Shown piece after piece: positions 2,557 through 5,653 of a stretch of 27,332 nt of DNA. The DNA is from a virus. The notes beneath the pieces were generated by a model. It searched no databases, was not told where the DNA came from, and saw only the letters and a program-made list of their open reading frames with translations. Location of the stretch: IMG/VR virus record IMGVR_UViG_3300028920_000227, positions 1-27,332 of that record. One strand, 5' to 3'. Position numbers and translations under genes: made by a program. Position 1 is the stretch's first letter; the number at the start of each line of letters is the position of its first letter.

Positions 2557-4740
2557 TCAATTTTCCTGCAAAACAGCCTTATTACCGCTAAGCGCCTCGT
2601 ACCTTGCAAGTATTATATCACAGTGCGCCGGCTCCAATTCCGCCGCGATGCAGGTAAATTCCAACCGCTCAGCCGCGAGCAGCGTTGTACCGCTGCCGGC
2701 AAACGGCTCAAGTATCGTACCGCCTGGTGGCGTAATCAGTTTGCAAAGGTATTCCATGAGTTTGATTGGTTTGACAGTGGCATGAACGTTACTTTCACCG
2801 CGCTCACTGCGGCTGGCCTTGGCTTGGTATAGAAATCTGGTTGCGGTATTTCCTGTGATAGGCGTTGTGCTTTTCTCGGTTGGATTCTCGCCATTTTCGC
2901 AAATACTCGCGGCTACAATCTTTACAATACCCTTGATAGGTGCCTGATTTTCTCCTACTAAATAAATCAAGCAATCGGTATTGCTTACAAGACTGACACC
3001 TTCGATACTCTCGACCGTCAATGGTTTTATGATCTTCTCGCAATCGATTGTGCAATGACCAATGAGCGTGCTTGTCGAGACACTCAATATTGGAAAGGCA
3101 ATTATTGAGTGGGTTTCCATCTGCGTGATGGATATGGTGCCCATCTGGAATAGGGCCATTTGCCTGTTGCCAAATCCACCGGTGCTCAAGCATTCGCTTT
3201 TGCTTGCCGTTTTCTTTCCAGCAAACGTATCGCCGCCCTTTGTCTTGTCTAATCCACATGCGTCATTTATTACCATAAAAAAACGGCTTGCGCCACCGGT
3301 GTCGCCAAAACCGCAACCTACAGTATTATTTTTATCGGTTGCACCATGTTTATATATATTTGATCCCTTAACCCCTGACTGACCTCCCGCCGATTTTCCC
3401 AACTCACCGCTCTGCTTATCCAGCATCGCCGCTGCCGTTTCGTCAAGTATGACGTTGGCGGGGAAGCGGCCGGTACGCTTTTCTGAATCATTCCAATCAT
3501 CCTTGTATCCATCGCGATATTTCAACTCCGAATATGTATTGTGTTGTTTTTGCTCAAGCGTATGCCGTATTTCGCTTGATCGCCTATCTTTATCAGACTG
3601 AAAACCAATCCTCCCCCCATCCACATTAATCCCGCCGCATCCCCATTTGAGCACATTGTCTGCTACCGTTTTTTCGCTGATCGGTTTGCGAGCCAGCACG
3701 ATTGGCTCATTTGCCGGCTTGAGCGCTGTCCCCCAACCGTCCCAGGCTTTGGCGATATCTGTAACCGCCGTGTTATCCCTCGTAAGATCATTATTAGAGC
3801 TATTTTTCCAACCCTTAAGATTCTGATCGTGCTTACCTACAGAACGCCCATCAAATGTTTTTCTTTCAACCAAATCCCTCTCAACCCCTGCCGCCTTGTC
3901 GATAGCCTTACTGATATCCAGAGACTTCGGAAAACCTGAGCCATAAAGCCATTGCAATTGATCGCGAATATCAAACCCGCCGTCCTCAACATTGACAGCC
4001 ATTCGGTGATATGTCCTGGTGCCGCCAAACGACAGAACATGAGCGCCGGGTTTTACCGCGCCGAATACCGCTTGCCAAAACTCAACACCCGGCACATCGT
4101 AATCCCACTTTTTCCCCATAAATTCCAAGCCATACGGCGGATCAGTCACAACAGCATCCACCGTATTTGGCAATAAACCAGTTATCATTGCTTTCGCATC
4201 GCCAACAAATAGTTGGTGCCTTCCCAATTTCCACGTTTCGCCGGCCTTGCACCTTGCCGGAATATCGGCGGGCATATCATCGGCGCCATCTGCCGGTTCA
4301 TCATCGGCCGCGCCGTCGCCGCCTGTTGCCGTGGTGTCATCTTTAAACTTAAACCCCAGCCCGTCCAAATCCTCAGCCGTAAATCCAATTTCCTCCAGGT
4401 CAAACCCGTCCAGCCGCAGACTGTCGAGTGTTTCGCCGAGCACCGCGTTATCCCAATCTGCCAGTTCAGACGTGCGGTTGTCTGCCACAGCAAACGCACT
4501 TAATTCGGTTTCTGATCCATCCATGACGCTAACGGTAATCTCGGTCCATCCCAGCTGCCGTGCGGCCTCCAGCGTACCGTTGCCGGCCCTGACGACGCCT
4601 TTTTGATCGACCACAATGTTTTTGCGTTGGCCGAACCGTTTCAGGCTGCCTTTAATTGCTTCGATATTTTTTGGATCATGCCGCCTGGCATTGGACGGGT
4701 CGGCGACAAGGCTATTGATCGGGACAGTTTTGATATCCAC
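2557..4740 (-). CDS. ParB-domain/adenine- or cytosine-N4 DNA methyltransferase, interrupted by an HNH ORF
   Basis: The 727-residue product starts with a ParB/Srx-like domain (residues 1-95, with GNGTLEAARQLGW) and an acidic linker. A beta-class amino-methyltransferase follows: motif IV DPPYG at 200-204 and the SAM-binding FAGSGTT at 680-686. Such ParB-methyltransferase fusions are common in phages and modify phage DNA against host restriction. The ATG at 4740 follows AAAGGTGAG. The expected continuous motif around SRFF and YQAKASRSERGE is split by about 149 extra codons (residues about 489-637, bases about 2830-3276). That insert encodes an HNH nuclease in a different frame, yet this frame stays open. 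Whether the enzyme is still active is unknown. Confidence 0.85.
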   Translation of the reverse strand: MDIKTVPINSLVADPSNARRHDPKNIEAIKGSLKRFGQRKNIVVDQKGVVRAGNGTLEAARQLGWTEITVSVMDGSETELSAFAVADNRTSELADWDNAVLGETLDSLRLDGFDLEEIGFTAEDLDGLGFKFKDDTTATGGDGAADDEPADGADDMPADIPARCKAGETWKLGRHQLFVGDAKAMITGLLPNTVDAVVTDPPYGLEFMGKKWDYDVPGVEFWQAVFGAVKPGAHVLSFGGTRTYHRMAVNVEDGGFDIRDQLQWLYGSGFPKSLDISKAIDKAAGVERDLVERKTFDGRSVGKHDQNLKGWKNSSNNDLTRDNTAVTDIAKAWDGWGTALKPANEPIVLARKPISEKTVADNVLKWGCGGINVDGGRIGFQSDKDRRSSEIRHTLEQKQHNTYSELKYRDGYKDDWNDSEKRTGRFPANVILDETAAAMLDKQSGELGKSAGGQSGVKGSNIYKHGATDKNNTVGCGFGDTGGASRFFMVINDACGLDKTKGGDTFAGKKTASKSECLSTGGFGNRQMALFQMGTISITQMETHSIIAFPILSVSTSTLIGHCTIDCEKIIKPLTVESIEGVSLVSNTDCLIYLVGENQAPIKGIVKIVAASICENGENPTEKSTTPITGNTATRFLYQAKASRSERGESNVHATVKPIKLMEYLCKLITPPGGTILEPFAGSGTTLLAAERLEFTCIAAELEPAHCDIILARYEALSGNKAVLQEN
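2804..3259 (-). CDS. HNH homing-type endonuclease nested in the methyltransferase gene
   Basis: The 151-residue product reads MWIRQDKGRRYVCWKE at its start and carries a clear HNH core: EHRWIWQQANGPIPDGHHIH, then HADGNPLNN and NIECLDKHAH (residues about 25-67). A C-terminal zinc ribbon follows, CQSCK and YCKDC at about 88-117, ahead of a basic tail. This layout matches free-standing phage homing endonucleases, which nick or cut DNA and spread by recombination. It is read in a different frame from the surrounding methyltransferase and fills nearly the whole inserted block. Its last 8 or so codons run into methyltransferase sequence. Only a weak GGTAA-like ribosome site precedes the ATG, so expression may be low or coupled. 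Confidence 0.85.
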   Translation of the reverse strand: MWIRQDKGRRYVCWKENGKQKRMLEHRWIWQQANGPIPDGHHIHHADGNPLNNCLSNIECLDKHAHWSLHNRLREDHKTIDGREYRRCQSCKQYRLLDLFSRRKSGTYQGYCKDCSREYLRKWRESNREKHNAYHRKYRNQISIPSQGQPQ

Positions 4741-4790
4741 GGCTCACCTTTGAGTGGTTTATGCCGTGGATTGTAATATTCGACCGTTTT

Positions 4791-5063
4791 TTAGTCAAGC
4801 AAACCCACTACGCAGCCGAGCGGCATATTGATCTGCCGTGCTATTTCCGGCGCTGTGAGGCCCGTACTGCCAAGCTGGCGCACTGTTTCCACCAGGCCAA
4901 CGTTTGCTATTGATTTTTCCGCCGATAGCGTTCTGTGGTCGATTCCGTGCGCCATGTCATGGCAACGCGAGCACAGCGGCACGGTTTTGGTGCCGCCGCG
5001 TGATTTGGGCACAACGTGGTGCCGGCTTGTGGCCGGCTCGCCACATTCAAAACATGCCTGCAC
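4791..5063 (-). CDS. Small HNH nuclease with C-terminal HTH-like segment
   Basis: The 90-residue product has the compact HNH/McrA pattern CFECG, RHHVVPKSRGGTKTVPLC and CHDMAHG in its first 42 residues. The cysteines are zinc ligands and the HH/N-type centre is catalytic. The C-terminal part, GLTAPEIARQINMPLGCVV, looks like a resolvase-type helix-turn-helix. The start is a GTG at 5063 sharing one base with the TAG stop of the upstream gene (TAGTG), after a GGAG site, so translation is coupled. Role is uncertain: a DNA-processing nuclease or a packaging-associated HNH are both possible. Confidence 0.8.
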   Translation of the reverse strand: MQACFECGEPATSRHHVVPKSRGGTKTVPLCSRCHDMAHGIDHRTLSAEKSIANVGLVETVRQLGSTGLTAPEIARQINMPLGCVVGLLD

Positions 5064-5653
5064 TATCTCGCTCCAAATTTTCTAATAAGGTTGAAATATT
5101 TTGCGCCGGTTTCAGGGCCATTGACTTTGGACCATATTCTAACGTCACCGCCTGTCCTTAACGTCAGGCCATGCCATTTGGTACGGCCCAAATCTCCGAC
5201 ACCAAGTTGGGCCATTATTCTGCTCATCCAAAAACGTGCTCCATTTTGGTGATAATGCTTATCGAGCGAATCATAGAGGTTTGCGCAAAACACGTAAATA
5301 TAGCCATATTTTCCAAAACTTGTATGAGCATAATCGACAGCCTGGGCCGCGTATTGCGTATATTTGTTGACCTGGCCTAGTTGTCGGTCGTTTTCCGGCT
5401 CGAAACATTTAAACTCTATGCCGAGCGCCGCTTTTTTATTTTTCCATTCCGTTTTGTCTCTTGGCTGTATGATTGCATCTATACGCAGGTTTTTGCCGCT
5501 GAAATGCCTTCCCCATACCTCGGTTTCAATCTCAAAATGCGGCTCCAATTCATTCAATATCCTGCTGGCCGTCTTTTGCTCACGTACTGGAAAATCCTTG
5601 ACGTTTGGTTGCCATGTGTCCCATTTTCTTTTAAAAAATTCCTGATCACCCAT
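5063..5653 (-). CDS. Putative PD-(D/E)XK-type nuclease
   Basis: The 196-residue product begins MGDQEFFKRKWDTWQPN. Between residues about 45 and 85 it shows a possible PD-(D/E)XK core: an acidic residue in LRIDAIIQPRD, then GIEFKCFE giving the E-x-K pair, then a helix with QVNKYTQYAAQAVDY. This is the layout of many phage and restriction-like nucleases, but the fold assignment is inferred from this motif alone. It is the first gene after the iteron region and is coupled to the downstream HNH gene. It could act in recombination, DNA degradation or as a partner of the nearby methyltransferase; I see no basis to choose. Confidence 0.55.
   Translation of the reverse strand: MGDQEFFKRKWDTWQPNVKDFPVREQKTASRILNELEPHFEIETEVWGRHFSGKNLRIDAIIQPRDKTEWKNKKAALGIEFKCFEPENDRQLGQVNKYTQYAAQAVDYAHTSFGKYGYIYVFCANLYDSLDKHYHQNGARFWMSRIMAQLGVGDLGRTKWHGLTLRTGGDVRIWSKVNGPETGAKYFNLIRKFGAR

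Follow-up and report, generated by a model that had tools for sequence, protein, structure and literature searches.

The ShiLan domain is an out-of-frame HNH endonuclease gene in a mycobacteriophage methylase, whose own reading frame stays open across the insertion; its nuclease starts at a GTG 18 bp into the insertion, and no intron or intein is recognisable (Arsenault, Gosselin and Gogarten, 2025; PMC11855218). Out-of-frame HNH genes are also found in the phage methylases Pacc40 gp60 and Applejack gp54/gp55, which by their descriptions are set apart as another insertion or methylase family (PMC11855218, PMC12613952). Three further settings for related nucleases are relevant here: the self-splicing group I introns that house HNH homing endonucleases of the I-HmuI type, inteins that carry both splicing domains and an HNH gene, and free-standing phage HNH_3 genes such as that of Acinetobacter phage BP10, in which the homologous nuclease is not nested.

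In this study, we analysed a window of 27,332 nucleotides (IMGVR_UViG_3300028920_000227, the whole stretch of DNA considered here) from an uncultured phage contig that is not a mycobacteriophage. Judged from its sequence, the window holds a ShiLan-type hidden-HNH arrangement, of the kind published in 2025, at a new site and with a different HNH. The likeness to ShiLan is extensive (PMC11855218, PMC9957025): in both, the host is a phage DNA methyltransferase, the insert is open in the host frame, the HNH lies in a third frame and in the identical phase (ShiLan locus L188), the nuclease begins 18 bp (ShiLan) or 17 bases (window) into the insert, neither has a detectable intron or intein, and the end of the insert resembles the flanking host sequence. 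The two differ in position and in the nuclease. The window insert lies at SRFF/YxAKAS near the C-terminal half, around reference residue 300, whereas those of ShiLan and phage Bipolar lie near EPxxxARKP, around residues 141–169; the window HNH has 151 amino acids, an ATG start and one C4 ribbon, whereas that of ShiLan has 195 amino acids and two flanking zinc fingers. They are thus the same kind of element and not the same element.

The host ORF (2557..4740, minus strand) encodes 727 amino acids and is stop-free across the insert. It combines a ParB_N-like domain with an N6/N4 DNA methyltransferase; Pfam returned N6_N4_Mtase (PF01555) at 3.7e-20 and ParB_N weakly, and the profile matches of the ORF include PHROG 498 (4.6e-78) and ParB-like families. 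Alignment to uninterrupted homologues places 149 extra codons (residues 489–637; 447 bases, 2830..3276, minus strand) between the conserved F488 and Y638, a whole number of host codons that splits the methyltransferase between SRFF and YQAKAS. Two methyltransferase motifs lie one on each side of the insert and both are intact: motif IV, DPPY (4132..4143, minus strand), which is invariant in the alignment, lies upstream, and motif I, FAGSG (2689..2703, minus strand), in which F680, G682 and G684 are invariant and S683 nearly so, lies downstream. Promoter and terminator scans of the region gave counts near the expected number. A further small HNH ORF (PF01844, 90 amino acids) adjoins the methyltransferase on its upstream side, at window positions 4791–5063 on the minus strand.

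The nested ORF (2804..3259, minus strand) opens with the ATG at 3259, 17 bases into the insert from its left edge, and stops 26 bases beyond the right edge. Its codons begin at host codon position 3, so that each host codon is made of HNH positions 2 and 3 and the next position 1. The ORF list, Pfam and the predicted fold agree on a homing-type HNH endonuclease: the match to HNH_3 (PF13392) has an E-value of 5.3e-14 and 52 bits against a gathering cut-off of 24.8, the HNH_3 core (HNH residues 26–63; 3071..3184, minus strand) retains H44, H45, N53 and N57 by Pfam and alignment, and a C4 zinc ribbon (C88, C91, C112 and C115; 2915..2998, minus strand) follows. Across 21 aligned nested HNHs, H44, H45, N53, N57, H66, H70, C112 and C115 are invariant, and C88 and C91 are invariant or nearly so. 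The preliminary description of this DNA, which had reported a block of about 149 codons dividing the methyltransferase at SRFF, an HNH plus zinc-ribbon protein in another frame and a methyltransferase frame running through without a stop, was accurate in all three respects.

The HNH was modelled with confidence (mean pLDDT 91.6), and the best match of the model among solved structures is I-HmuI (prob 1.00, E 0.013, 70 columns, a partial match), with which the window HNH has the core fold and the homing-type family in common; searching the solved structures by sequence yielded nothing of use. The 727-residue model is weak overall (mean pLDDT 55.9) and was built on a shallow alignment. In it the flanking halves with the catalytic and SAM motifs reach pLDDT 85–97 and the insert about 25–58, a low value that is no proof of disorder because the alignment is shallow.

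Unlike the I-HmuI-type genes, the window HNH is not accompanied by an intron that we could find. An Rfam search of the region returned no match to any family up to an E-value of 10, and the insert has almost no sequence outside the ORF. HNH_3 endonucleases are, as a matter of general knowledge, common in group I introns, and an unrecognised self-splicing RNA might remove the insert and leave the open host frame as an incidental feature. Such an RNA would have to be accommodated with 17 bases before the HNH and an HNH that runs past the right edge, and it would not need an open host frame, yet the frame is open in 39 of 39 nested cases; we consider it very unlikely. Pfam likewise found no intein or Hint domain in the window host ORF, although such domains were present in the intein loci used for comparison. 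The earlier arguments that the edges leave no room for an intron core and that intein splicing parts are missing are both upheld by these searches.

Two other contigs (L082 and L083) carry the identical insertion at the identical site, with HNHs 63–70% identical. An assembly error, which the preliminary description had named as a possible refutation, is therefore excluded for practical purposes. The broader explanation by a chance ORF overlap or an artefact, in whose favour there is nothing except the modest single-case probability given below, is refuted in practice by these two independent contigs together with the significant HNH_3 match and the intact catalytic residues. An uninterrupted match to xRFFYxAKxS is present in 117 of 192 other fetched loci, and the window site is filled in three loci. 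There is no clean empty site, because even the nearest uninterrupted allele shares about 54% identity. A search of genome contigs with the window HNH as query found no relative, and a profile built from the three window-type HNHs found no further members.

Taken together, we consider it probable that the window holds a homing HNH gene with a pass-through host frame and no splicing, a reading in which the translation of both products, methylation, nuclease activity and homing are deduced from sequence. A homing-type HNH gene would have invaded the gene for the phage DNA methyltransferase, entering at a conserved site within the variable loop that separates the catalytic half (DPPY) from the SAM-binding half (FxGxG). 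The element would carry no splicing device, and the host frame would read the nuclease gene as a stop-free, poorly structured loop. Because the insert comprises whole host codons and the host frame is stop-free, the methyltransferase is most likely translated straight through, giving a 727-residue protein with an extra loop. Internal initiation on the same message, at the ATG at position 3259, would yield the nuclease; this would cut alleles that lack the insert, and repair would copy the element in. The start of nuclease translation poses the same problem as was raised for the published ShiLan case, and no Shine–Dalgarno sequence was seen by eye before the window ATG. A −1 frameshift producing a methyltransferase–HNH fusion, suggested by a T-run that precedes the insert, was rejected since a TGA closes the HNH frame immediately ahead of the ATG.

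The arrangement recurs. A search with the methyltransferase query alone already returned other contigs with a same-phase nested HNH in an open methyltransferase, and across all loci searched 39 nested HNH placements were found (32 after removal of near-duplicates). They occupy several sites of phage methylases as well as the inteins of terminases and one methylase. Nested loci share ancestry, and the counts are of loci and not of independent events. All have one relative phase, with the host frame equal to the HNH frame +1. The methyltransferase cases comprise L082, L083, L002, L003, L048 (with two HNHs), L053, L086, L087, L093 and L170–L183, and in named phages Mycobacterium phages ShiLan, Mantra and Bipolar, Escherichia coli phage BUCT618 and cyanophage Cr-LKS3; contig L071 corresponds to phage Bipolar, whose nested HNH shares 98.9% identity with the ShiLan one. 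Besides the window site, the inserts fall after AKASKSERN near the C-terminal half (L002, L003, L048, L086, L087, L093 and L170–L182), in the loop before GRWPANVI (the second HNH of L048), near EPxxxARKP (L053, Bipolar, ShiLan, Mantra and Cr-LKS3) and, with a different HNH type, after the GSGFPKS region (BUCT618). A methyltransferase and a nuclease in one locus might also form a compact restriction–modification unit with the nested HNH as the restriction partner. This we regard as extremely improbable, given that the HNH resembles homing nucleases (I-HmuI), that unrelated HNHs occupy several sites of the same methyltransferase family and occur in terminase inteins as well, and that the motif is uninterrupted in 117 loci. 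The earlier picture of a homing ORF that had settled in a gene thus survives as far as the homing type and the out-of-frame position are concerned, and fails as a one-off event, the arrangement being recurrent at several sites and in several gene types.

None of the 39 nested placements has a stop in the host frame, whereas each of the 14 free-standing HNHs recovered with the same queries has 2–13, a contrast that is partly by construction because nested cases are defined by openness. In an HNH-only search that was not conditioned on openness, 16 of 18 loci were nested and open. For the window, an exact calculation that held the HNH protein constant and drew synonymous codons according to host-gene usage gave a probability of 0.041 that the host frame is open; other nulls gave 0.0135 and 0.126 (base composition and own-codon shuffling) and 0.053 (other ORFs of the locus). 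The openness of the window by itself is only modestly improbable (P about 0.04). Under the same codon null the 32 nested cases, which are not independent, have a median P of 0.015 and a log10 product of −64.6. In a separate calculation on 30 nested cases, 1.23 open frames are expected and 30 observed, again with cases defined by openness. The openness of the class is not chance. The preliminary judgement that an open frame is unlikely by chance therefore stands for the class (39/39 versus 0/14) and is weak for the window alone. In the other phase, the codon null gives 3.4e-7 for the window and a median of 1.4e-6; stop-codon arithmetic would require many more codons to be adjusted there, hence the single phase in all nestings. 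The relatives gathered here suggest that nested HNH genes are a common arrangement governed by a single fixed frame rule.

The same figures bear on whether the insert might instead have divided the methyltransferase into two parts acting in trans, the C-terminal half being restarted as in Aeh1 nrdA and the openness being accidental. Catalytic and SAM-binding halves can act as separate chains in some methyltransferases, the insert separates exactly these halves, and a P of 0.04 for the window would allow chance. The class as a whole speaks against it, with 30 open frames where 1.23 of 30 would be expected (nestedness being defined by openness) and with nested, open HNHs at 16 of the 18 loci from the search not conditioned on openness; furthermore, an alternate-frame HNH inside an intein needs read-through. 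We hold a split enzyme to be unlikely.

Inteins with an alternate-frame HNH, not fused in frame, were found in terminases (L055, L166, L167, L186 and L191) and in one methyltransferase (L183); they include the large terminases of phages Highwayman (OZ038341), TJE1 (HQ225832) and LS06-2018-MD07 (OP947163) and of contigs L055 and L186. In L166, L167, L183, L186 and L191, Pfam matches to Intein_splicing or Hint extend across the nested HNH or border it, and the L055 intein was judged from sequence. A preprint on non-canonical actinophage inteins, cited by the ShiLan paper (10.1101/2025.01.02.630785), may already contain alternate-frame intein nucleases. The annotation of the named phages gives an oversized terminase only. 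Since Intein_splicing spans the alternate-frame HNH, these inteins need host-frame translation through the nuclease stretch, which makes pass-through the natural reading for the intein-free cases too. The inteins have the HNH phase and the open host ORF in common with the window, but carry splicing domains where the window insert has none. An origin of the window element from an intein with an out-of-frame HNH, whose splicing blocks were lost and whose remainder is tolerated as a loop, would concern its history and not its present working, and inteins of this kind do exist in terminases and in L183. The window insert has no Hint remnants, its HNH fills almost all of it and is only about 25% identical to that of the L183 intein, and such a descent appears improbable. 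For the Highwayman HNH, a free-standing homologue adjoins the small terminase gene of BP10 (L192, 2471–3112). The two are 52% identical over the aligned part, and the BP10 gene has 11 stops in the corresponding +1 host frame; together they form a natural before-and-after pair.

The comparison of dN/dS in both frames, which the preliminary description had proposed, was run and separates them. Naive ratios are 0.08–0.37 in the HNH frame (one pair saturated) and 0.75–2.1 in the host frame across the nested pairs tested; they are NG86 values that ignore the overlap and are descriptive. In almost every pair, HNH codon position 3 differs more often than the other two positions, and the window-type trio is 0.65–0.70 identical in the HNH frame versus 0.39–0.48 in the host frame. 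As read from these alignments, purifying selection acts on the HNH frame, and the host-frame reading of the insert is not conserved. Of the dual-coding insertion proposed earlier, only the HNH half is thus conserved. The host frame is on average less hydrophobic (Stouffer −5.7) and richer in S/T (+7.2) than a null requiring openness only; with a more even null the polarity shift is weaker and in the same direction (20/30 and 21/30), and free-standing genes go the opposite way. The window alone has no significant hydrophobicity or S/T shift. In the host frame, selection seems to keep openness and, on average, polarity.

On balance we lean slightly towards regarding out-of-frame HNHs as a general third way beside introns and inteins by which homing endonucleases inhabit essential or useful genes, selected to be open, polar and in one phase, comprising several HNH types and sites, and moved to the overlapping frame within inteins. 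A few published mycobacteriophage curiosities would thereby become a testable rule, namely that a nested HNH gene stands in one particular phase and leaves the host frame free of stops, with examples from a cyanophage, an E. coli phage, terminase inteins and uncultured phages. The arrangement also offers a natural system for overlapping-gene evolution, with one conserved frame and one under openness only, and a warning for annotation, as a nuclease gene may lie concealed in any oversized methylase or terminase of a phage.

Several individual loci add detail. L048 (IMGVR_UViG_3300050821_019647; 3613–5583) has two different out-of-frame HNHs at two sites in one phase, with the host frame open. 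BUCT618 (L164, OM735461; 1893–2498) has an unannotated zinc-rich HNH of the PF13391/PF01844 type in the usual phase within an annotated methyltransferase CDS. Host function is not always kept, because in L174 (about 2939) and L182 (about 2924) the methyltransferase is disrupted immediately past the HPT motif, which lies just downstream of the insert, in one by a stop and in the other by a frame change. Finally, diverged repeats of host-coding flank lie on both sides of the inserts in the window, L083, L053 and L164 (GGASRFF/TGASRFL, ICLATKPL/ICLARKPL and KAIDK). In the window, the left flank GGASRFF (3277..3297, minus strand) is partly repeated at the right edge as NTATRFL (2830..2850, minus strand), just before YQAKAS, and the copy is clearer in L083 (TGASRFL); such repeats around several inserts are perhaps a trace of the element's arrival.
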